The position numbers were made by a program, and so were the translations under genes. From NCBI GenBank assembly GCA_029882215.1, contig JAOULC010000005.1, forward strand, positions 62,001 to 126,000: a DNA stretch of 64,000 nucleotides. The letters are read 5' to 3'. The DNA is from Gammaproteobacteria bacterium. Lineage in GTDB: Bacteria > Pseudomonadota > Gammaproteobacteria > SZUA-229. Position 1 is the first letter of the stretch. The number at the start of each line of letters is the position of its first letter. Positions 7,607 through 41,386 of this stretch are shown in pieces. Below the pieces are notes generated by a model. That model ran no database searches. It was not told the origin of the DNA and worked only from the letters and a program-made list of their open reading frames with translations.

Positions 7607-9301
7607 TTATTTGTATACTAAAAAGCTGCCAATAGAAAGGATATCCAAGCCCGTAGTATAGAAACATTTTATCGCATCAGTCGGTGACTCAACAACTGGC
7701 TCACCCATAATATTAAAGCTTGTATTTAAAACAATAGGGACACCTGATATTTCACCAAGCTCAGTTATTAGCTGATGATATTTAGGGTTTGTTTCAACAT
7801 GTACTGTCTGGACTCGGGCACTACCATCTACATGAGTTACTGCTGGAATAACTGACTTTTTATCTTCTTTAACCTGGCAAACTTTTAACATAAAAGGAGC
7901 AAAAACATTCAGATCGAAGTAATCAGTCGTTTTCTCAGAAATTATAGATGGGGCAAAGGGCCTGTATGGTTCACGATATTTCACCTCTGCATTGATTTTA
8001 GCTTTCATATCGCCATAAACTGGATTGGCAAGAATAGATCTCGCACCTAGCGCACGCGGGCCAATCTCCATTTTACCCTGGAACCAGCCAATTATTTTAC
8101 CATCAGCAAGCTCCTTGGCTGTATCTTTACAAATATCATCACTCTTTACGTACTTAAGCTTATATTTCTTTAATTCTGTTTCGATATCTGCATCTGTATA
8201 TTCAGTACCGGTAAATGGGTTACTATGAACAAATGAACGCGGCTGGTTTAAAGTATGATTATAAACATAAAAAGCAGCTCCAATAGCTGTTCCATTATCA
8301 CCAGCAGCGGGCATTACATAGACATCCTTAAAATTTGTATTCCTTAGTATCTCACCGTTCATTACACTATTTAACGATACACCACCTGCGATAACAAGAT
8401 AGTCTTTTTGTGTTTTTTCATGCAAGCGATTACATATTTCAATCGCAACCTCCTCCAATACTTTCTGAAATGCAGCAGCAGTATCATAGTGGTGCTTCTT
8501 AAATTCTGCCGTTTTACTATATTCTCTTGGTTCGCCGAAGACTTCATAGAATTTTTCTCCACAACGCTGAGAATCACCGTATTGGTAATTAAAGTAGCTT
8601 AAATCAACTTGTATACGTGACTCTCCGTCGAGTGAAATAATCTCCTTAACCTCATCATAAAATACCGATGAATCACCGAACGGTGCCAAACCCATGGTTT
8701 TTCCTTCATCATAATTAGGACGAAAACCACAGAACTCTGTTACTGCCTCGTAGAACGAGCCTAATGAATGCGGAAAAAATGTCTCAGAATAACGCGTAAA
8801 ATTTGTACCCTCACCGAGGCCTGTCCAAGCCGTAGACCACTCACCGGACCCATCAAGCGATAGTAACGCAGCTTCATCATAGGGTGACACATAAAAACTA
8901 CCAACAATATGTGACAGATGATGCTCGACATAATGCACCTTAGGTGTCGTCTTTCGAAAAAAACTGTTGTACCAGTTTTTAAATCTTTTCTCCCTTGAAT
9001 ATGGGCGATAAAACTCATTTTTAATAAACTTCAAAGCATGTCGCGGCATCTTAATCGCGTATAATAGCTTTCTGATATTGTGTTTACTAAAGTCCGCTGA
9101 AATTGCAATATGATCAATCTGATCTGCCGTTATATTCGCAACTGTCAAACATCTTTTTATAGCATTTTCCGGGAACTCATAAGTGTGCTTCTTTCTGCTT
9201 AACCTTTCTTCTTCTATAGCAGTTATAAGGACACCATTCTTAACAATACATGCTGTTGAGTCGTGAAAATGAAAATTCAATCCCAATATAATCATACCCA
9301 T
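7607..9301 (-). CDS. Carbamoyltransferase (NodU/CmcH family)
   Basis: A 564-residue protein with the two domains of the O-carbamoyltransferase family. The N-terminal Kae1-like part has GLNFHFHDSTA (residues 7-17), IEEERLSRKKH and HHLSHIVGSFY followed by LSLDGSGEW, which form the metal and carbamoyl-adenylate site. The C-terminal YrdC-like part has GPRALGARSILANP. The family transfers carbamoyl from carbamoyl phosphate, through an adenylate, to a sugar hydroxyl. The start at 9301 has AAGGGA four bases upstream; a second ATG at 9295 is possible. Within the EPS locus it probably carbamoylates a sugar of the repeat unit. Confidence 0.92.
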   Translation of the reverse strand: MGMIILGLNFHFHDSTACIVKNGVLITAIEEERLSRKKHTYEFPENAIKRCLTVANITADQIDHIAISADFSKHNIRKLLYAIKMPRHALKFIKNEFYRPYSREKRFKNWYNSFFRKTTPKVHYVEHHLSHIVGSFYVSPYDEAALLSLDGSGEWSTAWTGLGEGTNFTRYSETFFPHSLGSFYEAVTEFCGFRPNYDEGKTMGLAPFGDSSVFYDEVKEIISLDGESRIQVDLSYFNYQYGDSQRCGEKFYEVFGEPREYSKTAEFKKHHYDTAAAFQKVLEEVAIEICNRLHEKTQKDYLVIAGGVSLNSVMNGEILRNTNFKDVYVMPAAGDNGTAIGAAFYVYNHTLNQPRSFVHSNPFTGTEYTDADIETELKKYKLKYVKSDDICKDTAKELADGKIIGWFQGKMEIGPRALGARSILANPVYGDMKAKINAEVKYREPYRPFAPSIISEKTTDYFDLNVFAPFMLKVCQVKEDKKSVIPAVTHVDGSARVQTVHVETNPKYHQLITELGEISGVPIVLNTSFNIMGEPVVESPTDAIKCFYTTGLDILSIGSFLVYK

Positions 9302-9485
9302 TTTTCCCTTAAGTATACTGAAAATTAATTAGTTATAAATGCACTCATAGTACACCAATTTACTACCTACGATGACACCCAGTTAGAAATAAAACTTGAT
9401 TTTAATCATTTATTACCATGTATAACAATTAAATTTAACAACACAAGTATCGTTATAGCGCTGACAGAACAGGCAAACCATAAAC

Positions 9486-10589
9486 TTACGCATGGTCATT
9501 ACTGATACCTCTAAACAATTTTCTTTTTATAAATTTCATAGAACGATATACTGAAAAAACAAGCTTTAATATCAAGCCTCTAACTGAATAATTAAAGTGC
9601 TCTATTGCTCGTAGATTAATAATTTCCGGATGCCAGCGTTCCGCCCACTTGGGGCTTGTATTTAAATTTATCGTAGTAATACTTGTGTCTAGCAAAGCGC
9701 ACTCAATTATTTTTTTAACCAGTATTGAGCCGGGACCAAATTGCGTAAGGTCTTCTGAATATGATATTTTATGTAAGTAGAGGTTAGAACAATGCCTGAA
9801 AGAAATAGCACCTGCTATCAACTTATCATTTAAATAAAGCAAATATATTAGTGCTTTTTTATGTTTCGAAAACCCTTTCCATGATTTTTTATAGAAATTT
9901 GTAGTGCACAGATCTGATGAAATTGACGTTTGTAACTTACCCTTCCACCCAGAACCCTCCAGCTCAATAAATTGGCTCATCGCATCAGCCACTTCATTTT
10001 CAGAGGTATAACATTTGAGGTCTAATGCATCATCCTTCGCAAGCATCTTTTTTTCTAATCGATTAATATTTTTAAACATTTTTTTAGATATCACATCGGA
10101 AACAGTAGCCTTCGATTCTATATCAAAATATGCTGACTCTTTATGATAAAAAGGAACCATATGAGATTTATGTAAACCTGAATCGGCAATAATATTGCGA
10201 GCCTGAAAATAATCCCATCCTGATATATTTTTTGACAAAGACATTTTAAGCTCACCAACAAGATCATTTATGTTGAAATTATTCTGCCCAGCAAAAACAA
10301 AAACATCGAGATGATCATGATTGCTAACCTGAATAACAGACACCTTAAGAAAGCAAATACGCTTAACCTTAATAAACAAAGGCACGGCTAGTACTAGGTC
10401 TTGATCAACAAATGCAAACGCATATACCAGCTTATACTTATCTAACAGTAACGAAGATGACAATGCAAAATCAGGGAAAGAACTAGCACAACTACTTGCG
10501 TTATGCTCTGAAATATCATTCCACTTGGCAACAATATCCTGAGGCGGTCTTTCATTTATATAAAACTTCCAGTGTAGTTTATTGTCCAT
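9486..10589 (-). CDS. CelD/BcsL-type GNAT acetyltransferase (FemAB-like)
   Basis: 367 residues. The second half has the FemAB/CelD acyltransferase pattern: MFKNINRLEKKMLAKDD-like basic stretch, FIELEGSGWKGK, then a LIYLLYLNDKLIAGAISFRH strand and a KISYSEDLTQFGPGSIL segment, as in the Acetyltransf_6 family found in XrtA-type EPS loci. The exact acceptor is unknown for most members; acyl or aminoacyl transfer to a polysaccharide amine is plausible, which would fit the deacetylase nearby. No strong ribosome site is visible before the ATG. It lies upstream of the carbamoyltransferase in the same direction, 184 bases away. Confidence 0.78.
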   Translation of the reverse strand: MDNKLHWKFYINERPPQDIVAKWNDISEHNASSCASSFPDFALSSSLLLDKYKLVYAFAFVDQDLVLAVPLFIKVKRICFLKVSVIQVSNHDHLDVFVFAGQNNFNINDLVGELKMSLSKNISGWDYFQARNIIADSGLHKSHMVPFYHKESAYFDIESKATVSDVISKKMFKNINRLEKKMLAKDDALDLKCYTSENEVADAMSQFIELEGSGWKGKLQTSISSDLCTTNFYKKSWKGFSKHKKALIYLLYLNDKLIAGAISFRHCSNLYLHKISYSEDLTQFGPGSILVKKIIECALLDTSITTINLNTSPKWAERWHPEIINLRAIEHFNYSVRGLILKLVFSVYRSMKFIKRKLFRGISNDHA

Positions 10590-10689
10590 AACTTAATCGC
10601 TGCATCATATTCTATGTGGTAGTCAAAAAAACATTACTGTTGGCAATACCATATTTATCTTAATAACTTTAGTTCTGCTCATATTAAAT

Positions 10690-11808
10690 CTAGACAGTCC
10701 TTCCAAAATATGCTTTAACCGTCTTCAAGTAATCTTCGATTTTAAAATAAAACTTGTTTCTTCTTATTTTTATCCAGTACAACCTATCGCAATCAGTGGA
10801 TAAACTTTTCTTGTAAGCACTATCACCAGCCATAAAGTCGTAACTTTCGTACCCTCCCATCTCGGCGTAGAAGTTAACCACCATCAAATGACAGACAAGC
10901 CCCGGTCGAAAGTCATTACCTGACCTGTAATTAAGACCACTTTGGTAAAAATATACTTTTTTATCATAAGCAAAACAGTATATATAGCCAATCAACTCAG
11001 CCCCACTCGCTATTTTGAACAGATGAAGGTGATTGAGAGTAAAACTATCCGTTATCATTTTATCATGAAATGATTTAAAAAAAGGACTTGAAAAGGAGCC
11101 TGGCTCACCTTTTAATTCCCAGCTTTTTTGATGAAGAGCCTCCAGGCCAGCCAAATAATCCAGTGCTAATTCCTGAGTACTTGCAAGCTCAACCGTCAGC
11201 TTAGTATCTGTCTCGTAATTTCTGATACTTTTATTTATTTGTGAACGCTTATTTTTACTTAATAATGGCAATAGAGAATTGCCATTAGAGCGAACACGAT
11301 TTAAGTCTATATAGAAAGACGATCTTGACTCTATTAACTTTACAGTTAATTCTGGTTCGACAGAGTTTAGAGAACTTACCCACTCCTCGCCTACTGCTGG
11401 ACAATGAAACTCTCCCCATCGCTTCACTGAATATGACAGAAGCTTACTATAATTGTATTTCGTCACCACCGGGCTCAATAGAAACCCATTATATTCTATT
11501 GTAATCTCATCAAACAGATCTTCACCGATTGAATTCAAGTAACCACGACTACAATAAATAAAGCTATTTTCAAATCCTTTTTTTATACCCACAAAAAAAG
11601 CAAAGATAACGCCTGACTTGTCTTCAACATAAACAAACCGGACATCCTGTGTTGATGGCAGACACTTAATCCATGCACCAATCCACTCCCACGACAAGAA
11701 AAAACTATGCGGACATATTTTTAGAAGAAACAACCAAATAGATTTCACCTTTTCAAATTCATAAAAAGGATTCAATTCGTAAAATACAAATTCTGGTTTT
11801 TTATCCAC
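10690..11808 (-). CDS. Second CelD/FemAB-like GNAT acetyltransferase
   Basis: 372 residues from a GTG start. It is related in layout to the neighbour at 9486: a basic KNKRSQINKSIRNYE segment (about residues 188-202), LEALHQKSWELKGEPG, then LIGYIYCFAYDKKVYFYQSG and the conserved YRSGNDFRPG and YDFMAGDSAYK segments. The last two are typical of the Acetyltransf_6 (BcsL/CelD) family in which a GNAT fold binds acyl-CoA or acyl-ACP. Two paralogues in a row suggest two acylation steps or a heteromeric enzyme. The substrate is unknown; assignment to polysaccharide modification rests on the neighbours. Confidence 0.78.
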   Translation of the reverse strand: MDKKPEFVFYELNPFYEFEKVKSIWLFLLKICPHSFFLSWEWIGAWIKCLPSTQDVRFVYVEDKSGVIFAFFVGIKKGFENSFIYCSRGYLNSIGEDLFDEITIEYNGFLLSPVVTKYNYSKLLSYSVKRWGEFHCPAVGEEWVSSLNSVEPELTVKLIESRSSFYIDLNRVRSNGNSLLPLLSKNKRSQINKSIRNYETDTKLTVELASTQELALDYLAGLEALHQKSWELKGEPGSFSSPFFKSFHDKMITDSFTLNHLHLFKIASGAELIGYIYCFAYDKKVYFYQSGLNYRSGNDFRPGLVCHLMVVNFYAEMGGYESYDFMAGDSAYKKSLSTDCDRLYWIKIRRNKFYFKIEDYLKTVKAYFGRTV

Positions 11809-11899
11809 TGCTTTAATTGACTCGCTGATTTACTGCAAAACAGATAAAAAACTATAAACAATATTTGAACAAAAAAATGCAAAATACATTCTTAAATGC

Positions 11900-12931
11900 T
11901 TAGTCATAACACTCATCCGCACCTTGTCTGAAATAATTTGGAGCAGCCAGCATCGCTGCGAATAGCGCCTTACTTGTATATCTTTCAACATGAAGTCGTT
12001 TAAGTTCAAAACGATCATCATCAGGAATAGAATTTGATCCTGCAATATACGAGCACCCTATTTTGTACGCACTTTCAGACATCGCCTTAATCTCGTTATT
12101 AAAATCTTGCTTCCCACCGACCGGATATGCTATGGCCACACAATTATTGTTTATTTTATCGTTAATAATGTTTCTTGAATTAACAATCTCATCCTCAAGC
12201 TTTGACTTATCAAGTTGTGACAACACAGGGTGAGATCGCGTATGGGATCCAATTTCCATCCCATTTTTTGACATTTCAACAACCTGATTCCAGGTCAGGG
12301 GCATACAATCATTGTATCCATCTGACGGTATATCTACACCATAAAGAGTTTTTAATTCTTCAATTCTCTTTATTCTGCTATCATCCGGAATTCCTTTTAA
12401 AAACTTCAATAGCCTGCATAGCTCTGACTCTTTATTATCTTTTGTAATATCAATAATGTAATTATTGTTATCCAGATGATATTTTCCTTCGGGTATTTTT
12501 TTTATTATGTACGACACATAATCAAACCAAAATGGATTAGTCGTTCCTATATAATCAGTTGCAATAAAAAATGTCGCCGGAACCCCGTGCTTTTTTAACA
12601 CAGGAAAAGCATTTATATAGTTATCATCAAAGCCATCATCAAATGAAATAATCACACTATTTTTAGCTACACGCCTTCCATTTTCAATATCAGATACAAT
12701 CTCTTCAAATGTAGTTGGATTATAGAATTTCTTTACATGTTCAACCTGCCACTCAAAATCACTTACACTCGCGCTTATTAATTCAGCATCAAATTCGTAG
12801 TCATTCTCACTCCCTATATCTTTTATTCTGTGGTATGCCAAAATTTTTAAGTCACTAGACCGAAATCTTCGAAGAAGATTAAGAATAGATGTTCTATACA
12901 TCAGGGCGGCAGCCAGTTCCATTTTACCCAT
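11900..12931 (-). CDS. Polysaccharide deacetylase (CE4, YHR-type)
   Basis: 343 residues; the start at 12931 is supported by an AGGGGG ribosome site five bases upstream. The NodB domain begins with LAYHRI (about residues 32-37), then IISFDDGFDDNY (motif 1), GVPATFFIAT, GMEIGSHTRSHP (motif 2, two metal His) and AIAYPVGG (motif 3 region). All core motifs are intact. No signal peptide is evident. It is the first of four genes (deacetylase, two GNAT acyltransferases, carbamoyltransferase) that look like a decoration set for the EPS repeat. A free amine made here could be the acceptor for one of the GNAT proteins, which is inference. Confidence 0.88.
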   Translation of the reverse strand: MGKMELAAALMYRTSILNLLRRFRSSDLKILAYHRIKDIGSENDYEFDAELISASVSDFEWQVEHVKKFYNPTTFEEIVSDIENGRRVAKNSVIISFDDGFDDNYINAFPVLKKHGVPATFFIATDYIGTTNPFWFDYVSYIIKKIPEGKYHLDNNNYIIDITKDNKESELCRLLKFLKGIPDDSRIKRIEELKTLYGVDIPSDGYNDCMPLTWNQVVEMSKNGMEIGSHTRSHPVLSQLDKSKLEDEIVNSRNIINDKINNNCVAIAYPVGGKQDFNNEIKAMSESAYKIGCSYIAGSNSIPDDDRFELKRLHVERYTSKALFAAMLAAPNYFRQGADECYD

Positions 12932-13012: not shown

Positions 13013-14284
13013 TTACTGTGCATTATCGAGTTGATTAAATTCATGTTTTAGCGCATCTGTATATTCATTAAAAAAGTGATACAGGGAACTATCAACCACT
13101 TTAACGGCACCTTCCAGTAAATGACATCGCCCACTACCCGGTAATATACTGCAAAGATTTACCAGATTATCAAGATCTGCTTTTGAGCCTTTTCCTGTAT
13201 CAATTTTGTTTAGCAATTGCGACATATAATAGGTACCGGTTTTACATGACGGGCATTGACCACATGAAGCATCTGCAAAGAAATCCATATACTGAGCAAC
13301 CCGTTTAACGATACCCGTGCCCTGTGACACAACAATCATTGCACCAGTACCTAGAGCAGCGCGTTTTAACTGTACAGAATTAAAGTCCAGATTTACATCA
13401 AGACTCTCTCCGGTAAGGATTGTGTTTGATGGCCCACCTGTAAATACAGCTTTTAATTTTTTACCAACTAACAAACCCTGACCATACGTATATATTAAAT
13501 CCTCAAGCGTCGTACCCATCGGCAGCTCAAAAACACCCGGCGACAATACATCACCACTTAAACTGTATAGTTTAGTACCACTAGCATCCTTTATACCCAG
13601 ATCATGAAACCATTTAACACCGTTACGCATGATATGCGGCACATTAGATAATGTTTCTACATTATTAACCAGCGTAGGTCTTCCAAACACACCGGCGGTA
13701 GTTGGACGCGGCTCTTTTCCTCTTGGGAATGGGAAGCTACCTTCTACTGCTTCTATAGCGGCGGTTTCTTCACCAGCTATATAATGTCCAGTACTGGCAA
13801 CCACCTTATAGTCCATCAGCAATCCGGCGCCCTGAATACTTTCGTAAAAGCCGGATTGCTGCCATTTCTCTACCGCTGTTTCCATCATCTTAATGCAACT
13901 ATCTAGATTAGGATTAATATAAAATATTATATTTGTAATACCACACGCAATAGCCGCTATCGACGCGCCCTCTATGACTTGCAGAGGTGTTTCTTCCAAT
14001 AACACTCTGTCCTTAAATGTTCCCGGCTCATCCTCATTACCGTTACATATCAGGTATTTTTCACTACTTGTCTGTTCGGATATAGCCTGCCATTTTTTAT
14101 ATGCAGGATAACCGCTACCTCCGAGACCCAATAAACCTGCATCTTTTATCATTGGTATTATTGCAGTGGGATCTTCGAGTGCCACTTTTAAACCATCACC
14201 TCCCCAGCCTTCTTGCCAACGTGATATGTCTGCCCCTATTCGACTCTTACTATTTAACAATACCTGATTCAATTCGTGCTTCAT
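13013..14284 (-). CDS. NuoF-like NADH-binding flavoprotein (FMN, 4Fe-4S)
   Basis: 423 residues homologous to the 51-kDa subunit of complex I and diaphorase subunits. Visible landmarks are LLGLGGSGYPAYKKW and NGNEDEPGTFKDR (FMN/NADH site), GEETAAIEAVEG, the RPTLVNNVETL strand, and CGQCPSCKTGT plus a later GSGRCHLLEG, which give the four Cys of a NuoF-type 4Fe-4S cluster. It should oxidise NADH and pass electrons on. The usual other Nuo subunits are absent; instead the upstream gene overlaps by 4 bases (ATGA) and encodes an SdhA-like flavoprotein. The natural reading is an NADH-dependent input module for that reductase. Confidence 0.88.
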   Translation of the reverse strand: MKHELNQVLLNSKSRIGADISRWQEGWGGDGLKVALEDPTAIIPMIKDAGLLGLGGSGYPAYKKWQAISEQTSSEKYLICNGNEDEPGTFKDRVLLEETPLQVIEGASIAAIACGITNIIFYINPNLDSCIKMMETAVEKWQQSGFYESIQGAGLLMDYKVVASTGHYIAGEETAAIEAVEGSFPFPRGKEPRPTTAGVFGRPTLVNNVETLSNVPHIMRNGVKWFHDLGIKDASGTKLYSLSGDVLSPGVFELPMGTTLEDLIYTYGQGLLVGKKLKAVFTGGPSNTILTGESLDVNLDFNSVQLKRAALGTGAMIVVSQGTGIVKRVAQYMDFFADASCGQCPSCKTGTYYMSQLLNKIDTGKGSKADLDNLVNLCSILPGSGRCHLLEGAVKVVDSSLYHFFNEYTDALKHEFNQLDNAQ

Positions 14285-15900
14285 GATAAGTCTTTTATAT
14301 TCTTATGCAGACCGGAATAATCTGAGTCTGTCTCAAACTTTGCATAATCAGGAAATAATATGGGACACTTTTTATCCATCGGCATATTTGCAAGTGTTAA
14401 TTCACGACGCAAACGGCTAAGATGCTCTATTGTAATTTTCCCATGAGATATTCTTGATGAATTTTTTGCTATATGTGCTCCAGCTCGTCTCCCAAAACAA
14501 ATTATTTCTAGCAATGAGTTTCCCATTAAGCGATTCCTGCCGTGTATACCACCACTAACTTCGCCGACACAGTACAATCCTTTAACATTCGTTCTTCCGT
14601 GTTCATCGATCACCACACCACCATTCTGATAATGTAAAGTAGGATATATCAACAATGGTTTTTTTCTTGGGTCAGCTCCGCTTTTGTGCCCCAGCTTTAT
14701 TAACTTTGGGAATCGCGCTTCAAATATACCAGGGCTCTTTAGCTCAAGCCCTGGTGTATCCAGCCAGACACCTTTGCTACCGCCGCCTGCATCAATACCT
14801 CGTCCTTCAGCACACTCACGCATAATCGCAGCGCAAACTTTATCTCTTGGCAACAATTCATCTATAAACCGATCACCTTTTGCATTCAATAAATACGCTC
14901 CTGCAGAGCGCACACCTTCTGTCACTAAAGACCCTGAAAGATGCTGAGGATAGGCCAGACCAGAAGGGTGATATTGAAAGGAATCCAGATCACGAAGCTT
15001 TGCTCCTAGTCGATAAGCCAGAGTCAAGCCATCACCTGTAGCACCAAAGTGATTTGAAGTTGGAAAATTATTTATATGTAATCGTCCAATTCCTCCTGTT
15101 GCAATAACAACCGCCTTAGCCCTTACTAATTTATATCGGTTTTCTTGCAAGGATGAGAGGACTGCGCCTGTACAATGCCCATCTTCATTTGTTAATAATT
15201 CCACTGTCGGTGTATAATCCAGAACTTCGATACTGCTACTTCTCACCGCCTCTTTTAACACCCTCATCATTTCAAGGCCGGTATAATCCCTAAAATAAGC
15301 AACTCTTGGAACACTAGTTCCACCAGCCTGTCGCGTTAGCAGATCGCCATACTCATCAAGATCAAATTGCATACCCTGCTGTATCAACCATCGCACAACA
15401 TCTGGCGCACTCATCACCATCTCTGCTACTAGCTTATTTTCAACCTGACGATGTCCGCTCTTAATTGTATCTTCGAAATGCTGCTGCGGAGTATCGTTTT
15501 TATTGATAGATACCTGTATTCCGCCTTCTGCCATAATTGTATTGCTATCACCCAGCCTCAGCTTGGTTGCCAACATTACACTTATGCCTGATTCAGCTGC
15601 TGTAAGAGCTGCTGCACAACCCGCCCCACCTCCTCCAATTACAAGGAGATCAGTATCGACAACCGGAGCGCCTGCAAGATCTGCCTCATCGATACGTGCA
15701 TCTGCCTGCAGCAACTCTGCTAACTGTGCGTGGCATATTTCCCCTTTATTGACACCCACATTCAGAGTTACGCATGAGTCCTGATAATAATCAGGATGAT
15801 ATTTCTCTAACAAATTTTCATAACTGACGTCGGGCAACGGTCTTTCTTTTGTAGCCCGATAAATCTCTATTGCGTCCGAAAAAGATATAGATTTTTCCAT
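14281..15900 (-). CDS. SdhA/fumarate-reductase-like FAD flavoprotein
   Basis: 539 residues. A Rossmann FAD site is clear (DLLVIGGGGAGCAAAL, about residues 83-98), followed by SNTIMAEGGIQ, FQYHPSGLAYP, LVTEGVRSAGAYLLN and the C-terminal GEVSGGIHGRNRLMGNSLLE. The order and spacing match SdhA, FrdA and NadB. The His that carries covalent FAD in succinate dehydrogenase (SHT) is Asn here (SNT), so FAD should be non-covalent. The C-terminus is shorter than SdhA. The substrate could be fumarate, another enoate, or the reverse dehydrogenation. It overlaps the NuoF-like gene and lies 16 bases after the iron-sulfur gene, forming one operon. Confidence 0.85.
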   Translation of the reverse strand: MEKSISFSDAIEIYRATKERPLPDVSYENLLEKYHPDYYQDSCVTLNVGVNKGEICHAQLAELLQADARIDEADLAGAPVVDTDLLVIGGGGAGCAAALTAAESGISVMLATKLRLGDSNTIMAEGGIQVSINKNDTPQQHFEDTIKSGHRQVENKLVAEMVMSAPDVVRWLIQQGMQFDLDEYGDLLTRQAGGTSVPRVAYFRDYTGLEMMRVLKEAVRSSSIEVLDYTPTVELLTNEDGHCTGAVLSSLQENRYKLVRAKAVVIATGGIGRLHINNFPTSNHFGATGDGLTLAYRLGAKLRDLDSFQYHPSGLAYPQHLSGSLVTEGVRSAGAYLLNAKGDRFIDELLPRDKVCAAIMRECAEGRGIDAGGGSKGVWLDTPGLELKSPGIFEARFPKLIKLGHKSGADPRKKPLLIYPTLHYQNGGVVIDEHGRTNVKGLYCVGEVSGGIHGRNRLMGNSLLEIICFGRRAGAHIAKNSSRISHGKITIEHLSRLRRELTLANMPMDKKCPILFPDYAKFETDSDYSGLHKNIKDLS

Positions 15901-15916
15901 ATTTATATTTGTGCTC

Positions 15917-16594
15917 TTAAAAAATAACTTTTAACTCACCTTTACGTAAGTCCTCAAGACGATTTATTAAATTTGATGGGCGAGTATGTAGATGAGCAGT
16001 AACTCTGCGAGAAAAGATACCTACATAATTTGGAGCTATAGATTCAGGACAGGCGCTCTGACATAAATTACACAGTACGCATTCATCAAACAAATCACCG
16101 GCTTCACGAAAACGACCTTTAGTTGCCAATATGACAGCTCTTTCAACATCAATAGCTTTAGGGCATGTCGAGTTACAGCCACCACAGTGCCGACATGATT
16201 CGGCCTCTGGAAATATTTCGTGAAACTTAGACTGAACTTCCCAGGAATTCTTTATATCTTCAAGCTTGTACGACTGCTTTGCTGGAGTAGGAAACGCTAA
16301 AAAAACAACCTGCATACCCTCTTCGATAAGCACCTGACAACCCAGCTCCATTGAGACTCCAGGCGCGCCGTTTCGGCGAATCATAACACAACAAGCACCA
16401 CAAACACCCTCAAGGCATCCTACACTTTTTATTCTGGGATAGCCCGAGTGCCACAAGGCTTGTATAACTGACAAATCCTCTGGAGCAGATATTGCCTTAC
16501 CGTTAATAACAGTATTAATATATTTAGCGTTATTATTATCCATTTCCCTAATATCTCGGCTTAATACCTGACGACAGCTAACTTTAAAACACAT
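15917..16594 (-). CDS. SdhB/FrdB-like iron-sulfur protein
   Basis: 225 residues as drawn, or 208 from an ATG at 16543 that has AGGGA just upstream; the true start is unsettled. The N-terminal ferredoxin fold has GCLEGVCGACCV with a later Cys (2Fe-2S), and the C-terminal half has CRHCGGCNSTCP and CVLCNLCQSACPE, two further cluster motifs like those of SdhB/FrdB. It should wire the NuoF-like subunit to the SdhA-like subunit. It is the first gene of a three-gene unit. There is no membrane anchor subunit, so the complex is predicted to be soluble or peripheral. Confidence 0.85.
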   Translation of the reverse strand: MCFKVSCRQVLSRDIREMDNNNAKYINTVINGKAISAPEDLSVIQALWHSGYPRIKSVGCLEGVCGACCVMIRRNGAPGVSMELGCQVLIEEGMQVVFLAFPTPAKQSYKLEDIKNSWEVQSKFHEIFPEAESCRHCGGCNSTCPKAIDVERAVILATKGRFREAGDLFDECVLCNLCQSACPESIAPNYVGIFSRRVTAHLHTRPSNLINRLEDLRKGELKVIF

Positions 16595-26415: not shown

Positions 26416-26592
26416 AATTAAATCCTTTATCATACATTACAGAGTGTCGTGTTTATCGGCTAAACAATAAAGTTGAAACACGTTTAACCATAACGAGTAA
26501 TTATGGTATGTATTCTCTGTTTTTTCGCTCCACTTACGCACAGGATATTGCCACTCATCAGGAAAGCTCAATATACTGATATAACTTCAACA

Positions 26593-32073: not shown

Positions 32074-33078
32074 TCATTCTGATTTACCCTTCTCCTCGAG
32101 TACATTTGCTATTCTTTTTAACTGCCGCGCAATTTCCACTAATGCCAGCGAGCTTATTTTTGAAGAGTCTTTATCATACTCAGTTGAGTAGTCATCACCA
32201 CCCGATGACTCATCCATCAACTCATCAACAGATATATTACGAAACTCACTACGATCTTTGCGTGACTTACTAGCAAACTCCGGCCATTGCAACTCTTCAA
32301 CAGCAGTGTCTATCACCTCTTGACTTACAACATTAACATTGTCGGCATATGAGCAAGTAAGTGCAGTATCGCATAATGTATTAATTAGGCGCGGAGTTCC
32401 TCCGGTATATTTATAGATAGTATCAAACACATCCTCAAACAAATCCTTATCTGATCCAGCAATATTGACTCTATGCTCAACATATTTTCTGGTTTCTTCT
32501 TTTGTTAACGTTCTCATATGATAGCGAAGACTAATGCGCTGCAATAGCTGCTCCATATCAGCACCTTCAAGCGCTGCGTTCAGCTCTGGCTGACCAACCA
32601 AGATAACGTGGAGAATCTTCTCCTTTTGGGTTTCAACACCCGACAACATGCATATCTCCTCAAGTACTTTCTTGGAGAGATTCTGCGCATCATCTACGAT
32701 TAAGACTACCCGTTTGTTATTCATATAACTATCAACGAGATACTGATTCAGCATATTCAGCAGCTCAACTTTCTTTGCACTGAATGGATTCATGCCAAAT
32801 TCAACAAGAACTGACTGCAGAAATTCAACATCATCTAGCTGGGTCTGAAAAATCTTAGCTACATTTATATTCACATCCATTTCAGACAACAATTTTTGTA
32901 TCAGAGTTGTTTTCCCTGAACCGATTTCACCGGTTATAACAACAAACCCCTCCTGATTAAAAACAGCATATTCCATATATGATATTGCTCTGGAATGTGC
33001 TGGACTCATGTATAAAAAGTCTGTATCAGGGGTCAATCTAAAAGGAAAGTCCTTAAGGTTAAAATGGTCTAAATACAT
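32074..33078 (-). CDS. XrtA-associated AAA ATPase (ExeA/GspA-like)
   Basis: 334 residues. It opens with YLDHFNLKDFPFRLTPD, the shared start of ExeA-type ATPases. Walker A is TGEIGSGKTT (about residues 49-58), Walker B LIVDDAQNL (126-134), and an arginine-finger region LLQRISLRYHMR follows. The C-terminus has an acidic, charged tail of about 60 residues. Proteins of this kind are a constant part of XrtA/PEP-CTERM exopolysaccharide loci and probably power assembly or export at the inner membrane. It lies 6 bases after the outer-membrane protein gene in one operon. Confidence 0.88.
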   Translation of the reverse strand: MYLDHFNLKDFPFRLTPDTDFLYMSPAHSRAISYMEYAVFNQEGFVVITGEIGSGKTTLIQKLLSEMDVNINVAKIFQTQLDDVEFLQSVLVEFGMNPFSAKKVELLNMLNQYLVDSYMNNKRVVLIVDDAQNLSKKVLEEICMLSGVETQKEKILHVILVGQPELNAALEGADMEQLLQRISLRYHMRTLTKEETRKYVEHRVNIAGSDKDLFEDVFDTIYKYTGGTPRLINTLCDTALTCSYADNVNVVSQEVIDTAVEELQWPEFASKSRKDRSEFRNISVDELMDESSGGDDYSTEYDKDSSKISSLALVEIARQLKRIANVLEEKGKSE

Positions 33079-33084
33079 AATATC

Positions 33085-34329
33085 TTACCTTGAAATAGAA
33101 AACGTAAAGCCAATACGTTTATCATTATACTGATACTGAGCAATAGTACTCACCACAATCTCTTCACTCAAAAAACCTACAAAGGACATTTTATTATTAA
33201 GCCTTTTTATATAACTAAGTTTTGACGTGTACATATTATTTTGGTAATTCTGCAAACTACCTGAGTCAATCTGATTTTCCGAGTCAATATAACTGAGATC
33301 CAACCTACTTTTATCCGATATATTGATGTACATAGTAAATGTCTTGGTGAGTCTGATATCTTCATCATCCTCAACTGTATCTTCTCTTACCTTTTCTTCA
33401 AGTCTCAGATCATAACCCGTAGTGATACCGTTCGTTTGATAATTAATAGATGATACTTTTTCGATATACACACCGTTTAGCGGTGTACCCAGTGAATCTA
33501 TAGCATTATTGTTATCCGACAAAGTCTTTGCATAACCCAAACTTATATTACTTAGTCTGGTTGTTTTCCTTTTATACAGAAAAGATGAGGTTGTGTAGTC
33601 GTTTCCAGCATCACCACTTAACGCCGACTTGCCAAAAAAAACATCAAATGCATCAACTCTTTTTGAATACTTAAAGCCGACACCTAGTGTTGACTGATCA
33701 TAATCATTTAACAGACTGTTACTCTCATAAGACACTACCTTGGTTGTGTACTTGAGATACAATTCTTTACCAGCAGACATATTCCTAGACCAGATTAAGT
33801 TTGTAATAACGCTAGAGTTATCATTATCTGTCTCGCTATAATCATAAGCGTAAACATAAGAACTTAACTTAAGTGAATTCCCGGAAACCTCCCAGTCAAA
33901 CACAGGCCCCGTAACAAGTTCATTCACATCCTGAATATTATTTTCATTAAAGTTCAACGATGTATCAATCCTTGTTTGCGAAAATGTATCCCGTAAATAC
34001 CAGGAATACCGCCCCTTTCTTATTATCCAGTTTGCATCCGTCTTTAACGAACTTCTTGTAACATCACTGGCATAGTTGTTGACAAAATCCATATAATTGA
34101 TGTTAATTTCCAGATTTGCAGTTAAACCTGCCGCATCTTCATTAACCTTCAAATAGATACCTGTTATGCTGATGCTTTCTTCTACAGGAACCGTTGCTCC
34201 TGAACCATCCTCAGGTACTTTTAGAATATTTGATGTGGTTTCGTACGACTGCTTAGCCCCTGCATCTAGCACCAGAGCCTGTAAATCCCCCCAAAATAAC
34301 AACAAAGAAACCAATAAAAATATTTTCAT
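33085..34329 (-). CDS. XrtA-locus outer-membrane beta-barrel protein
   Basis: 414 residues with a signal peptide (MKIFLLVSLLLFWGDLQA). The rest is built of alternating amphipathic strands with many Tyr, Ser, Asn and Asp residues, ending in KRIGFTFSISR with an aromatic close to the end, which is a typical outer-membrane barrel. Its place between the BY-kinase-like and the ATPase gene matches the outer-membrane protein of XrtA-type EPS loci. Its role is unknown; it may form part of the export channel or a surface anchor for the polymer. Confidence 0.78.
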   Translation of the reverse strand: MKIFLLVSLLLFWGDLQALVLDAGAKQSYETTSNILKVPEDGSGATVPVEESISITGIYLKVNEDAAGLTANLEININYMDFVNNYASDVTRSSLKTDANWIIRKGRYSWYLRDTFSQTRIDTSLNFNENNIQDVNELVTGPVFDWEVSGNSLKLSSYVYAYDYSETDNDNSSVITNLIWSRNMSAGKELYLKYTTKVVSYESNSLLNDYDQSTLGVGFKYSKRVDAFDVFFGKSALSGDAGNDYTTSSFLYKRKTTRLSNISLGYAKTLSDNNNAIDSLGTPLNGVYIEKVSSINYQTNGITTGYDLRLEEKVREDTVEDDEDIRLTKTFTMYINISDKSRLDLSYIDSENQIDSGSLQNYQNNMYTSKLSYIKRLNNKMSFVGFLSEEIVVSTIAQYQYNDKRIGFTFSISR

Positions 34330-34357
34330 ACGAATAAGAACACATCAAAAACTGAGA

Positions 34358-35188
34358 TCACACCCACTCAGGCACATCATTCATAACCACACCAATTAGC
34401 TTGGATTTATCTATCCTCTTTAACGTATTTTCAAGGTCTTTCTTCTTTACCTTTCCATACGGCACAGCTACAACAACATAATCAACAAGATCGATCAGGA
34501 TACTGGTATCAACCGACTCACTCACCGCTGGTGAATTAAGCACAACATAACGATCCTGATAGCGCTCAACAAGACCATCCAGTAACATTTTCATTCTAAG
34601 CGTGGTAAAACTTTCACTTGATCTGCCAGCATTTAAACCTGATGGAATAACGCGCAGTCTTTTTATCCCTACATCTTTGATAATATCGACAACCTCTGCA
34701 TTACCATCAAGAAAATCAAGCAGGCCGTACTCATAGTCAAGATCCAGCATTGTATCAAGAGTGTCCGACTGAAAATCACAATCTACAACCAGAGATGTCT
34801 TGGTCTCATCAAATGAAAAGGCAGCCCCCATATTCATTGATACAAACGAACTATCTACACCATCTCCACATGATGTCACTAAGACAATAAAGTTCTCGTC
34901 CTTAGACTTCTGCAGCAGCTGGGTTCGTAAATAACGAAAACTATCGGTAACACTCGACTTTTCTGAACCAGGACGAATAATCTTTTGACTCAGTAGTTTT
35001 TCATCATCGATCGTAACATTTTCTTTCATTAGCTTAATTAACGATGAAGATGATGATTGCTTAACCACACTGATAGCACCACCAGTGACAGCTGTTGGAG
35101 TTTGCACTTCCCCATCACTTGATGCAGATATAAGCTGGTTAGATCTGCTTTCCTTGGCTTTTCTTAATGCCTCTTCAATTCTACTCAC
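34358..35188 (-). CDS. XrtA-type BY-kinase-like protein with degenerate nucleotide site
   Basis: 276 residues, clearly of the CpsD/Wzc-kinase fold: N-terminal MSRIEEALRKAKESR helix, SFRYLRTQLL before the first strand, a Walker A' SLVVDCDFQ (132-140) and the GLLDFLDG segment. The P-loop, however, reads TSCGDGVDSS (105-114), with no Lys, and the Walker B strand is VVLNSP (215-220), with Asn in place of the catalytic Asp. No C-terminal Tyr cluster is present. It probably no longer phosphorylates and may act as a structural partner of the chain-length protein, whose start overlaps its end by one base (35188). Confidence 0.8.
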   Translation of the reverse strand: MSRIEEALRKAKESRSNQLISASSDGEVQTPTAVTGGAISVVKQSSSSSLIKLMKENVTIDDEKLLSQKIIRPGSEKSSVTDSFRYLRTQLLQKSKDENFIVLVTSCGDGVDSSFVSMNMGAAFSFDETKTSLVVDCDFQSDTLDTMLDLDYEYGLLDFLDGNAEVVDIIKDVGIKRLRVIPSGLNAGRSSESFTTLRMKMLLDGLVERYQDRYVVLNSPAVSESVDTSILIDLVDYVVVAVPYGKVKKKDLENTLKRIDKSKLIGVVMNDVPEWV

Positions 35189-36741
35189 TAGATTTTACCC
35201 ATTAACTTAAGACTACTGGCAGCTATGTAAATAACAACCACAAGAGATAAAACAACTATTAATACGCGATAATTATTATGCAAAGCGCTCCTGTCCCGAT
35301 CCGTCCAGTAATGCGGGATTTCTGCTAAAACTGGCACACCCAACTCTTCAGTTATACTGTTAGCAGACCTTACTTTCCCATCCAGTTGTATCAAGCCAAA
35401 CACAACACCAACAGGTATAATGATTCCCAACAGGATTCCAAGAATCAGAAAATGCATAAAGCGTATACCAAAAGGTCTGATCGGCATTTTTGCACTTTCG
35501 AGAATGGTAAATGTAGAACCTTTTTGTTGTGAATCAAGACTCCTTGATATTCTGGCATTCTCTCTTCTTTTTAATAAATCCTGATATATCCCCTGATTTA
35601 CATCATAATCTCGGGTTAATGTTTGCATCATTGAGTCCCCTTCCTCAATACGCCGCATACGGTCAAACTCGGCATCTAGCAAGGTCTTCATTTCTTCTAA
35701 GCGGGCTTCAAGTGTGGCAATTTCAGTTTCTGTTTCCGACAGACTTGATCGCAGTTGCTGATAAATGGGATTGGTTGCTATTGAACTATCAAGATAGGTT
35801 TTTCCTTCTTTTCTAGCATTTCGTATGGCCTCATCCCTCGCCTTCACCTCTGACTCTAATATTGCCTTCATATCAGCAATATGATGAGTTATCCTGACAA
35901 CATCAGGATAAGTTGGTGTATAAGTTAGCAAGAGTGTTTCAAGCTGATTTTCCATTTCAGTTATCTTAACTCGGTATTTACCTTCCTTTGACTGGCTTAT
36001 CGTCATTGCCGCCTCACCAGAGAGCTGTCTTTGAAACGATTTTTTTCTAATCTGAGCTTCTCTAAGAGCCAATTTTGTATTTTCATATTTAAGCTTGAGA
36101 TTAGTGACTCGCTCGGTTACTTTTTCCTGCGTACCAGGCCTTGCATCCGGGTTATCTGTAACAAAACGTTTTATTTTTTCGTCAACAGAAGTCAGTTTAT
36201 CCAAATACTCTGAAGCCTGTTTTTCAATAAACTCATAGGCTGAACGGCTTTCTTCAACTTTGTTTGTTTTTCCTATATCTACAAACAGTTCCGCCATGTT
36301 TTTCGTGGTCAAATATACCCGGTTAGGATCCGCATCGGTGAATTCAATTTTTATTAAACTGTCACCTACTTTATTAATCTCGGTTCTTTGTTTAATCGAA
36401 TCAATGATATTTTCCCTTTCAACGGCATCAGGGCCTTTTTCCAGCCAGCCACTGTACTCAAGAACCTGATCTATGATTTTAGTACCGAGAATGATTTGTT
36501 TGGCATTTTTCGCAATATCTTTAGACTCAGCTGTAACAGCTGTACCTTTCATTAAAGGTGTTATTACATTTCTATTATCTACATATATTAAAGACTCGGC
36601 ACGGTAACGTTTTGGCCAGTTAACACCCACCATCATCGTTAACAGACTGATGATACAAAAGACAATTACGATTTTATTACGATGCCGGAAACTATCCTTT
36701 ATCGTTAAACTAATCAGCTCCTGAGTTGAATATTGAATCAT
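35188..36741 (-). CDS. Polysaccharide chain-length determinant / polysaccharide co-polymerase (Wzz/Wzc-type)
   Basis: 517 residues. A first membrane helix (about 25-45) is followed by a Wzz domain (VNWPKRYRAESLIYVDNRN), a long periplasmic coiled-coil rich in Glu, Lys and Arg (about 160-400), the family motif ESAKMPIRPFG before the second helix (about 425-448), and a third hydrophobic stretch near the C-terminus (about 493-512). This is the XrtA-locus chain-length protein. It should set polymer length together with the kinase-like protein encoded next to it. The first gene of the operon (Wza-like) ends 10 bases upstream. Confidence 0.9.
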   Translation of the reverse strand: MIQYSTQELISLTIKDSFRHRNKIVIVFCIISLLTMMVGVNWPKRYRAESLIYVDNRNVITPLMKGTAVTAESKDIAKNAKQIILGTKIIDQVLEYSGWLEKGPDAVERENIIDSIKQRTEINKVGDSLIKIEFTDADPNRVYLTTKNMAELFVDIGKTNKVEESRSAYEFIEKQASEYLDKLTSVDEKIKRFVTDNPDARPGTQEKVTERVTNLKLKYENTKLALREAQIRKKSFQRQLSGEAAMTISQSKEGKYRVKITEMENQLETLLLTYTPTYPDVVRITHHIADMKAILESEVKARDEAIRNARKEGKTYLDSSIATNPIYQQLRSSLSETETEIATLEARLEEMKTLLDAEFDRMRRIEEGDSMMQTLTRDYDVNQGIYQDLLKRRENARISRSLDSQQKGSTFTILESAKMPIRPFGIRFMHFLILGILLGIIIPVGVVFGLIQLDGKVRSANSITEELGVPVLAEIPHYWTDRDRSALHNNYRVLIVVLSLVVVIYIAASSLKLMGKI

Positions 36742-36750
36742 TATATTTCC

Positions 36751-37377
36751 TTAAAATAGTCTTTCCGGGACGGTAACAATATCCCCAGCCCTTAACATAA
36801 TATTTGTCTCAAGCTCGCCATCAAATAAGATATCATCGAGATATATTGGAATAACAATGGTTGAATTATTTTCTTTTCGATAGACCTTAGTTCTGTTTCC
36901 TGCAGCAAAATCATTAACCCCGCCGGCTGATAAAACCGCATCCAGAACCGTCATTCCCTGCCTGTATTTAATTGAAATTTGATTTCGCACAGCACCTGTC
37001 ACCCGTAAACGCGTCAAAAACTCATGACTCCGTAGGTCGGTAATAATAACGGTAACCTGTGGATCTCTGATGTACTTCGCTAGTTTTTTGGTGATGTTCT
37101 TAGATACCTCCTCAGAAGTTAAACCACCCGCCAGCACATCACCAACTAAAGGCACTGATATCTTACCGTCAGGTCTCACCGGCACAGTGACATTTAAGTC
37201 AGCATTTCTCCAGACATTTACAGCCAAAACATCATCGACACCGATGTGATAATCAGGGATAGAGTGGCTTACAGTCTCAGGAATGTAGTCACTGACTACA
37301 GTCAGGTCATTATTAGAACAAGCAGTAATAAGATAAATCAGAACTGATAAAAACGAAAGATGTAAAGAAAACTTCAC
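36751..37377 (-). CDS. Polysaccharide export lipoprotein (Wza-like, XrtA type)
   Basis: 208 residues from a GTG start with GGAG ten bases upstream. The signal ends in a lipobox (LITACS, Cys20). The Poly_export domain follows: YHIGVDDVLAVNVWRN, VPVRPDGKISVPLVGDV, and an SLBB repeat with VTGAVRNQ, GMTVLDAVLSAGG and LRAGDIVTVPE. It is about half the length of Wza, as usual for XrtA loci. It should sit in the outer membrane as the export gate. It is the first gene of the five-gene core operon, which reads from about 37.4 kb down to 32.1 kb. Confidence 0.92.
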   Translation of the reverse strand: MKFSLHLSFLSVLIYLITACSNNDLTVVSDYIPETVSHSIPDYHIGVDDVLAVNVWRNADLNVTVPVRPDGKISVPLVGDVLAGGLTSEEVSKNITKKLAKYIRDPQVTVIITDLRSHEFLTRLRVTGAVRNQISIKYRQGMTVLDAVLSAGGVNDFAAGNRTKVYRKENNSTIVIPIYLDDILFDGELETNIMLRAGDIVTVPERLF

Positions 37378-37658
37378 GAAACAAATACTCCATTATATTA
37401 GTATATAGCTAAAACCTAACCCACTATATTGTTGGTCAATGCATAGTAACCAATCTAGCCCGATATTCTATCCGACAAAGCGCTATTAGGTAAGAACTTA
37501 TAAAATCTATTATACAAAAATGTGAACCATATTAATTAAATCTAATTCTATGTGTCAAATATTCTGACACCCTACAACAGAACGCCGACCATTCCTTCAA
37601 TTACAGACATTAATAATATAAAATAGGCGCGATTATTTAACTAACACTGTAGGCTTTT

Positions 37659-38441
37659 GTGAAACTTAGCTTTTTAGAATGTTACCAAATACTGGATATC
37701 AACGATGATTGTGACTGGCCCACATTGCGGAAAAAATATAAAACCCTGATCCAACGATCTCATCCCGATCGCTTCGAAGCAGGATCAGCTGAGCAACAGT
37801 CAGCCCAAAGCCTTATCCGCAGCTACAATGCAGCCTATAAACAGATAGCCGACTTTTATCAGGCTAATCAGAAACTCCCACCCAGCTTAGCCGATAAAAG
37901 TGATGAAAATATCATCGCTCCAAAACCAAGAAAAAAAAGACCTTCTGTTAATCATGAGCATATTAGGGTCAGAAAAAAATCCAGCTCATACAACACGCCA
38001 GTAAAATTTATCTTTATATCCGCTCTCATTTTTGTCAGCTATTTTATTAGCTTTTATTTTAACGACAATGTATCAGAGCAAAAAAAATTATCTACTAGCG
38101 TAAAACCAGAAATATTACCTGAACATCATTTACATAATCAAAGAAATATTGAGCACAAGCCCATAGCGACTCATCCAACCCAGGAAAAATACTTCACAAC
38201 TGGATCAGGCTTAGGAGAAGTCATTACAACCCAGGGACAACCAACAAGAGTTGAAGGAAACATCTGGTATTATGGTGAGTCGTCTGTGACTTTTACTGAC
38301 GGCGCTGTATCAAGCTGGTTCAGACACCCTCAGTTTCCTCTAAAAGTTAAAATCACCGAAAACTCTGGGTTTACTTACCGATCCCGTTCGGATACAGAAG
38401 AAAAACCGGAAAAAACACACCAGCCCTACTGGAAACGATAG
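37659..38441 (+). CDS. DnaJ-domain membrane protein
   Basis: 260 residues from a GTG with AGG five bases upstream. Residues about 7-68 form a J domain (CYQILDIN, then RKKYKTLIQRSHPDRF with the HPD motif at the loop). A basic linker is followed by one membrane helix (about 112-128). The C-terminal domain (about 180-235) carries GSGLGEVITTQGQPT, WYYGESSVTF and GAVSSWF, a small beta domain seen in other bacterial envelope proteins with a VQGTPT pattern. It may recruit DnaK to the membrane. It lies divergent from the Wza-like gene and converges with the priming transferase. The link to EPS export is by location only. Confidence 0.75.
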   Translation: MKLSFLECYQILDINDDCDWPTLRKKYKTLIQRSHPDRFEAGSAEQQSAQSLIRSYNAAYKQIADFYQANQKLPPSLADKSDENIIAPKPRKKRPSVNHEHIRVRKKSSSYNTPVKFIFISALIFVSYFISFYFNDNVSEQKKLSTSVKPEILPEHHLHNQRNIEHKPIATHPTQEKYFTTGSGLGEVITTQGQPTRVEGNIWYYGESSVTFTDGAVSSWFRHPQFPLKVKITENSGFTYRSRSDTEEKPEKTHQPYWKR

Positions 38442-38451
38442 CCGCTAATAA

Positions 38452-39846
38452 TCAGCGCGCACCTTTACCAAACAAAACAACCTGCAAAGTCTGGAACATA
38501 ATCGTAAAATCCAGAAACAAACTATAGTTTTTTACATAATACAGATCATACTGCAGCTTCTGTTTGGTATCCTCTTCTGTATCACCGTACGGATAACAGA
38601 TCTGAGCCCAGCCAGTGATTCCAGGTTTTACTTTGTGTCTTAGTGAATAGTGTGTGATTGTATTATCGTAACCAGAGACAAACTCAGGGCGCTCAGGGCG
38701 TGGACCGACAAAGCTCATATCACCTTTTAATACATTAAATAACTGAGGCAGCTCATCAATACGCGTCTTACGGATAAAGGAACCGATTCTTGTTACACGC
38801 GAATCCTTCTTGCTTGCGTATTGCGCGCCATCCTTTTCTGCATCTGTTCTCATGCTTCTGAATTTTAACACCGCATAAGGCTTATTATCCAAGCCAACCC
38901 TGATCTGCCGATAAAAAACAGGATCTCTTCCGAAACTACTCAAAAAAATCAGAATAGCCGTCAGTAAAATAATCGGGCTTGCCAGAATTAAAATAATGGC
39001 TGATACCACAACATCAAATATTCGTTTGCTTGAACTTTGCAGGACCGCATGAGAAAAACCGGTTGAGAAAATCAGTGAACTCGGGTGAAGCGCATCCAGT
39101 TGAATATGACCAGTAATTCTCTCGAAAAAACTAACCATATCACGGACATAAATCCCTTCCATTTTACAATTTAATAAATCTGTTGCAGGAAACCTCTTAC
39201 GCCTGTCGTCTACAGCAACGACGATCTCATCAATACCATTGTTTAATGCAAAGTCAAAAATACTATCATCAGTCTTGATAACATCGGCCTTATTAACAAG
39301 AATCTCGCAGTCATTCATTGGTAAATAACCAACAATTTCAAAACCGTTCTCATTACATTTGTCTCTTAATTCCTCCACCTGCGAAGCATGCCTGCCTGAA
39401 CCAATAACTAATATCCTGCTTTTAAAACCTTCGGAACTCATTACTTTTTGAAAAAATGTTCGGCTCACAATAATACCGAAAAAAGCAACCATCAAAGCAA
39501 ACCCGATAACACCACGACCTAAAAACAACTCAGGTAAGACATAAAATGCCAGCGTAATCAACAAAAAGCCGAGACCAAAGCCAATAAACAACCTAATCAT
39601 CATGCTGGCAAAATCACTGATGTGACTGCGCTGATATAAGCCCATTGCAGTCAGTGCCCCCCCCATAATGAGAGTAAAAGTTAAGGCTTTAATCCATAGA
39701 TCAGCTTCAACGGCAAGATTAGGCTCGGTTGAATTTGAGAAGCGCAACTCAACACCGACATAAACAGAAACATATAATAAAATCGTTTCGATCATGATTA
39801 ACCAGATAATACTGCTTGGAATATAGTGCCTGAAAACGCGAACCAT
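38452..39846 (-). CDS. Undecaprenyl-phosphate sugar phosphotransferase, priming enzyme (EpsB/WcaJ-type)
   Basis: 464 residues. Four N-terminal membrane helices (about 10-125) and a CoA-binding-like Rossmann domain (SRILVIGSGRHAS) precede the bacterial sugar-transferase domain with SKRIFDVVVSAIILI, GRDPVFYRQIRVG, LKFRSMRTDAEKDG, TRIDELPQLFNVLKGDMSFVGPRPERPEF and KPGITGWAQI. These are the full catalytic motifs. It matches the XrtA-locus type that starts the EPS repeat by loading a hexose-1-phosphate (often glucose) on undecaprenyl phosphate. The window contains a second, short priming enzyme at 57589. Confidence 0.92.
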   Translation of the reverse strand: MVRVFRHYIPSSIIWLIMIETILLYVSVYVGVELRFSNSTEPNLAVEADLWIKALTFTLIMGGALTAMGLYQRSHISDFASMMIRLFIGFGLGFLLITLAFYVLPELFLGRGVIGFALMVAFFGIIVSRTFFQKVMSSEGFKSRILVIGSGRHASQVEELRDKCNENGFEIVGYLPMNDCEILVNKADVIKTDDSIFDFALNNGIDEIVVAVDDRRKRFPATDLLNCKMEGIYVRDMVSFFERITGHIQLDALHPSSLIFSTGFSHAVLQSSSKRIFDVVVSAIILILASPIILLTAILIFLSSFGRDPVFYRQIRVGLDNKPYAVLKFRSMRTDAEKDGAQYASKKDSRVTRIGSFIRKTRIDELPQLFNVLKGDMSFVGPRPERPEFVSGYDNTITHYSLRHKVKPGITGWAQICYPYGDTEEDTKQKLQYDLYYVKNYSLFLDFTIMFQTLQVVLFGKGAR

Positions 39847-41331: not shown

Positions 41332-41350
41332 CAAGCACAAAACGGATATC

Positions 41351-41376
41351 TTTAGTCTGCCCAACAGCAGACTAAA
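41351..41376. terminator. Hairpin between tviB and the convergent 4-epimerase
   Basis: A perfect 10-bp inverted repeat, TTTAGTCTGC and GCAGACTAAA, around a 6-base loop (41361-41366), sits 20 bases past the tviB stop and 10 bases past the stop of the convergent epimerase. It fits a bidirectional terminator; the flanking T runs are short (the AAA/TTT ends of the stem). Confidence 0.75.
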
Positions 41377-41386
41377 GACCTGCTAA

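Follow-up and report, generated by a model that had tools for sequence, protein, structure and literature searches.

Why does an exopolysaccharide (EPS) locus of a gammaproteobacterium contain a small operon of redox genes? The window, meaning the whole analysed stretch of 64,000 nucleotides, encodes three such proteins, here called B, A and F. An earlier note on this DNA read them as a tight operon of SdhB-like, SdhA-like and NuoF-like proteins with a 4-base overlap, and all three open reading frames are confirmed (Table 1). The genes are read from the minus strand in the order B, A, F, with 16 bases between B and A and the overlap of 4 bases between A and F. The sequence suggests that B probably starts at Met18 (about 16543), the start site of most homologues. 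The operon consists of B, A and F only, and glycan genes come next. The missing membrane anchor subunit pointed out in the earlier note extends to other genomes, as no anchor gene was found in the window operon or in the conserved core of the relatives' loci. The trio and the same-strand genes downstream possibly share a transcript, without those genes being part of the enzyme. The TviB/TviC-like genes indicate that the EPS probably contains N-acetylhexosaminuronic acid.

Table 1. Positions and assignments of the trio and of neighbouring features in the window.
Feature	Position	Strand	Description
B subunit	15917..16594	-	225 aa; plant-type [2Fe-2S] domain and HdrC/SdhB-like domain with two 4-Cys [4Fe-4S] motifs
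A subunit	14281..15900	-	539 aa; fumarate-reductase-type flavoprotein, predicted non-covalent FAD (Asn120)
F subunit	13013..14284	-	423 aa; NuoF-like NADH/FMN module, one [4Fe-4S]
Downstream same-strand genes	7607..12931	-	Polysaccharide deacetylase, two FemAB/GNAT-like acyltransferases, NodU-type carbamoyltransferase; gaps 81-184 bases
Core XrtA-type EPS genes	32074..39846	-	ATPase TIGR03015, TyrK, chain-length TIGR03007, export TIGR03027, EpsB_2 TIGR03013; neighbourhood, not part of the enzyme
TviB/TviC-like genes	40054-42415		UDP-GlcNAc dehydrogenase and epimerase
Multidomain protein	23242-26433	-	1063 aa; Big_5/beta-helix/calcineurin-like phosphoesterase, within the EPS locus
Beta-CASP metallo-beta-lactamase RNase	46536-47936	-	aCPSF1 and Cas14 (type VII) model matches below cut-off; between the EPS genes and glnS

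Subunits and direction of the reaction

The A subunit belongs to the fumarate reductase/succinate dehydrogenase flavoprotein superfamily, given its FAD_binding_2 domain (Pfam, 9.3e-82) and its set of dicarboxylate-site His, Glu and Arg residues. The best NCBIfam model is TfrA (NF004900, E 1.1e-99), at 334.6 bits and thus below the equivalog cut-off of 718 bits. A carries an N-terminal extension of about 80 residues, and the Pfam and NCBIfam searches gave no Succ_DH_flav_C match at its C-terminus. Searches against solved structures agree with the Pfam and NCBIfam family placement of the trio proteins, and the predicted fold of A is best matched by fumarate reductases, namely flavocytochrome c (Z 29.7) and E. 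coli FrdA (Z 29.0-29.4). Residues E125, H311, E328, R331, R352, H423 and R457 align with the dicarboxylate and proton-relay residues of FrdA, whose roles are well established. All seven are invariant in 16 sequences from both the close and the distant branches, the latter from reductive TCA (rTCA) operons.

The position of the covalent-FAD His of FrdA is taken by Asn120, a replacement already seen in the earlier note and invariant among the aligned A sequences. Judged from this residue, the FAD of A is likely bound non-covalently. Succinate oxidation is lost in E. coli QFR and yeast SQR variants that have no such His, and the Wolinella MFR, in which it is naturally absent, reduces fumarate but does not oxidise succinate (PMC2680327). 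Fumarate reduction is thus the likely direction of A, and the reverse reaction, which the earlier note had entertained, is unlikely.

The cysteines of B (C60-x4-C65-x2-C68...C86, C134/137/140/144-P and C172/175/178/182-P) are all invariant in an alignment of 17 sequences. The [2Fe-2S] and two further cluster motifs behind the former SdhB-like label are therefore present, without the 3-Cys [3Fe-4S] motif of true SdhB. Both [4Fe-4S] motifs read CxxCxxCxxxCP, the pattern of HdrC and TfrB. As each has four cysteines, B lacks the [3Fe-4S] cluster found on the quinone side of complex II, which fits the absent membrane anchor. Pfam and NCBIfam returned weak Fe-S matches only (2Fe-2S and dicluster), and the TfrB model covers just residues 130-155. 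We therefore compared folds, using an AlphaFold model and per-domain Z scores, as whole-chain TM-scores were low, probably owing to a different relative placement of the two modelled domains. Residues 25-100 form a plant-type ferredoxin domain (Z 8-9.5 to NuoG, HydA and FeSII), and residues 117-203 an HdrC/SdhB-like helical domain for two clusters (Z 11.5 to HdrC, 7.9 to an SDH Fe-S subunit).

The F subunit matches Complex1_51K (3.6e-41) and NADH_4Fe-4S (2.1e-21) in Pfam. It scores 370 bits on the NuoF equivalog model, below the cut-off of 558.65 bits, and is best described as a member of the NuoF superfamily. The NADH- and FMN-binding residues and the [4Fe-4S] Cys motif of a NuoF-type NADH module are present. 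The GLGGSG loop, the NADH-site Glu motifs NEDEPG and GEET and the 4Fe-4S cysteines are kept in 62-65 of 65 relatives. F contains neither a NuoE part nor a C-terminal ferredoxin domain, and no NuoE-like gene adjoins it.

Relatives, pathway linkage and proposed reaction

A search with B across the window's class and GTDB contigs showed that the B-A-F order recurs as a conserved operon in Gamma- and Betaproteobacteria that oxidise sulfur or iron. Carriers include Sedimenticola, tubeworm symbionts, Thiorhodococcus, Thiomargarita, Gallionella, Ferrigenium and Sulfuricella. Thiorhodococcus minor DSM 11518 (L103) is a carrier that can be cultivated. Among the 80 loci kept, 58 contain all three genes, so that the order is not due to chance; a further 12 have B and A without F (several at contig ends) and 10 have B alone. 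Genes for KorAB, the 2-oxoacid:ferredoxin oxidoreductase, lie within the fetched flank of 35 of the 80 loci, and at least one of Kor, SucC/D, aconitase, PntB and malate dehydrogenase in that of 46. The arrangement varies among clades. Kor follows the trio in gammaproteobacteria, together with a Fer4_13 protein and an RnfB-like protein, and lies immediately upstream in Gallionellaceae and Rhodocyclaceae. Other loci have SucCD downstream, or aconitase and the transhydrogenase PntAB in divergent orientation. Distant A-B pairs (about 45% identity for A, 25-30% for B) form an A-B-SucCD-KorAB operon in other parts of the phylum. The recurring linkage to Kor, SucCD, aconitase and PntAB argues for conversion of fumarate to succinate in a reductive C4 arm. 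Fumarate reductase and Kor have been named as reductive counterparts of TCA cycle steps in such bacteria (PMC6593406, PMC6315080, PMC4914600). In the literature consulted on the carrier organisms, we found no description of a NuoF-linked trio.

Several relatives depart from the full arrangement. B occurs with neither A nor F in the retrieved flank (some contigs being short) at L152-L156, L158 and L145, in Thioploca, Halobeggiatoa, Thiomargarita and one metagenome-assembled genome, where B adjoins EPS-like genes (L145). A solo B is either a lone Fe-S carrier or one part of a split operon. B and A stand without F at L111, L113, L114, L117 and L122, with aconitase in divergent orientation and PntAB as well where the contig reaches that far. 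These genomes may have the NADH module at another locus or may have replaced it. A stoichiometry of three subunits is hence not universal. The Fer4_13 protein of the gammaproteobacterial operons (about 820-860 aa; L074:16291-18759, with homologues at L100, L104, L121, L124 and others) sits between KorB and the RnfB-like protein in most Kor-trio operons of this class. Its only match is the C-terminal Fer4_13 domain, and it is possibly an electron-transfer partner of Kor.

We consider it likely that the trio forms a soluble cytoplasmic NADH:fumarate oxidoreductase running toward succinate. From anatomy, residue conservation, linkage and phylogeny, we infer activity, direction, complex formation, electron path and physiological role as follows. 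NADH would transfer a hydride to the FMN of F. Electrons would then pass singly through the [4Fe-4S] cluster of F and the three clusters of B to the non-covalent FAD of A, which would reduce fumarate to succinate. In the relatives, the trio would act together with SucCD and KorAB and feed a reductive C4 arm that leads from fumarate via succinate and succinyl-CoA to 2-oxoglutarate. The earlier suggestion of a soluble NADH-driven fumarate reductase is well supported by the site residues, the missing anchor, the F subunit and the linkage to KorAB, SucCD, aconitase and PntAB, in this direction only. No close relative has a known activity.

RuBisCO is found in the window genome and in most trio carriers. 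Two carriers (G370 and G387) have neither an SdhA above the cut-off nor a 2-oxoglutarate dehydrogenase (OGDH), and the trio may be their sole fumarate/succinate enzyme. The window genome encodes a canonical SdhA and OGDH, and KorA was not found in it. The pathway logic of the relatives is therefore not fully applicable, and the trio is better seen as an accessory enzyme there. The window copy could serve as an additional NADH sink and succinate source in a RuBisCO-bearing gammaproteobacterium.

Polysaccharide setting and competing readings

The location of the trio raises the question of a function in polysaccharide synthesis, one of two options in the earlier note. The trio could use NADH to reduce an enoate, either a precursor or one linked to the polysaccharide, or could provide the succinate with which EPS is succinylated. 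It lies among XrtA-type EPS genes with acyltransferases nearby, and its third-position GC content (GC3, 31-33%) resembles that of the EPS genes. The copy in the congener G037 (L091:1-12009) also heads glycan-type genes, in a tight same-strand run of a class II sugar aldolase, a double nucleotidyltransferase, DUF6798, a GT2 glycosyltransferase and a hydrolase, which looks like an undescribed glycan cluster. This shared setting speaks against a purely central-metabolic reading, but the glycan-type genes of G037 are unrelated to those of the window. Of 13 genomes that carry a close trio, 4 encode XrtA (31%), the same share as in the class overall (113 of 369 genomes, 31%), and the three of these besides the window genome have the two on different contigs. 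The trio hence does not track XrtA, a check that the earlier note had suggested. Among the 80 loci, it lies mostly away from EPS loci, the outcome that the earlier note had named as refuting its idea, and relatives sit next to TCA cycle genes. The trio is nearly unique to the window genome within its family, and the dicarboxylate site of A is unchanged. XrtA co-occurrence and the neighbours of the 80 loci rule out an EPS-specific role as the family function, and an EPS enzyme in the window itself is unlikely. A literature search for EPS, NADH dehydrogenase subunit F and fumarate reductase in combination retrieved nothing.

A narrower version places the change within the window's genus only. 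The trio could have been recruited there to make surface glycans. When oxygen is low, it might for instance act as a dedicated NADH sink or provide succinyl groups while uronic acids are produced at the expense of NAD+ (TviB/TviC-like genes, 40-42 kb). We regard this recruitment as improbable. We know of no earlier case of an NADH:fumarate reductase tied to an EPS locus, and the recruitment, if true, would be the first known to us.

The history of the window copy is consistent with relocation. Within the window's family, the trio is present only in the window genome and in G037, at 79-85% identity, and is missing from congeners that are 97% and 94% complete. In the tree of A, these two copies form one fully supported clade with L160, where, as read from the sequence, a cyclic-nucleotide-binding/EAL signalling protein appears to follow the trio. 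The clade is nested with Sedimenticola endophacoides, tubeworm symbionts, L104/L105 and Thiorhodococcus, most of them Kor-linked. The GC3 of the surrounding EPS genes is 28-39%, compared with 42-47% for genes further right. On the simplest reading, the copy was moved or laterally gained into an AT-rich polysaccharide island, early enough for its composition to match that of the island. A recent single-strain insertion, which the earlier note had named, is ruled out by the G037 trio and by the GC3 shared with the island genes, but the presence of the trio in the genus is patchy. The estimated contamination of the window assembly is 4.64%. Among the genes of the EPS contig (C95) that were checked, the chain-length determinant is absent from the other three genomes of the genus, although GMP_PMI has a 74% homologue in one of them (G036). 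The contig could conceivably be contamination.

A second reading assigns the trio to flavin-based electron bifurcation. NADH would reduce fumarate and ferredoxin at once, and the ferredoxin would then serve KorAB. The gammaproteobacterial operons that combine the trio with KorAB, the Fer4_13 protein and the RnfB-like protein fit this idea, as does the NuoF/HydB superfamily of F, which includes bifurcating enzymes. HydB and NfnB beta subunits are expected to carry an N-terminal thioredoxin-like [2Fe-2S] part and extra C-terminal 4Fe-4S clusters, and the HydB/NfnB relatives of F have 580-630 aa. F is of NuoF size and lacks both additions. Bifurcating and non-bifurcating beta subunits have been reported to differ in how many [Fe-S] centres they carry, among other features (PMC7311640). 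The missing domains and the absent NuoE-like partner argue against a HydABC/Nfn-type complex, and with KorA missing from the window genome we judge any bifurcation very unlikely.

Finally, A could act like an L-aspartate oxidase (NadB) or be another flavoprotein that uses fumarate, and B and F would then serve to reoxidise it. In favour are a NadB model score (TIGR00551, 316 bits) close to the 335 bits of NF004900 and the non-covalent FAD and identical substrate residues of NadB. This reading is very improbable, as A falls far under the NadB cut-off of 452.75, a separate NadB-like protein is encoded on another contig (C83) of the window genome and falls outside the A family in the tree, and neither dedicated Fe-S/NADH subunits nor TCA linkage are NadB traits.

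Comparison with known systems

Fumarate reductase and Kor genes accompany the Calvin cycle in many chemolithoautotrophic gamma- and betaproteobacteria, and it is rarely clear what donates electrons to the fumarate step. The NuoF subunit in the conserved B-A-F operon points to NADH as the likely donor. The EPS setting of the window copy provides no basis for annotating the enzyme.

Complex II (FrdABCD/SdhABCD) shares with the trio the flavoprotein fold, the dicarboxylate site and a [2Fe-2S] cluster followed by further Fe-S clusters. The trio differs in having no membrane anchor, no [3Fe-4S] motif and no covalent-FAD His, and an NADH module replaces the quinone site. F resembles NuoF of complex I and HydB, the beta subunit of NADH-dependent [FeFe]-hydrogenase, in its FMN/NADH domain and N3-type [4Fe-4S] motif. 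However, its glycine loop is GLGGSG rather than GRGGAG, the operon has no NuoE partner, and F is tied to a fumarate reductase. Hydrogenobacter thermophilus reportedly has a soluble NADH-dependent fumarate reductase of five subunits encoded by scattered genes. As described, that enzyme is soluble, NADH-driven and serves the reductive TCA cycle, which is the mode proposed for the trio, whereas the trio has three genes in one operon.

The thiol:fumarate reductase TfrAB, known from Methanothermobacter and as tfrAB in gammaproteobacterial rTCA clusters, is likewise soluble and uses fumarate. A scores best against TfrA, and B corresponds to the Fe-S (SdhB-like) half of TfrB. Yet the trio stays below the curated cut-offs, and B ends after the Fe-S domain, without the HdrB-like CCG thiol half. 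The siting beside EPS genes seems to reflect a move of the operon and not a change of function. The unusual feature is the architecture, in which a TfrA-like reductase is missing the HdrB half of TfrB and has a NuoF-type subunit in its operon instead.
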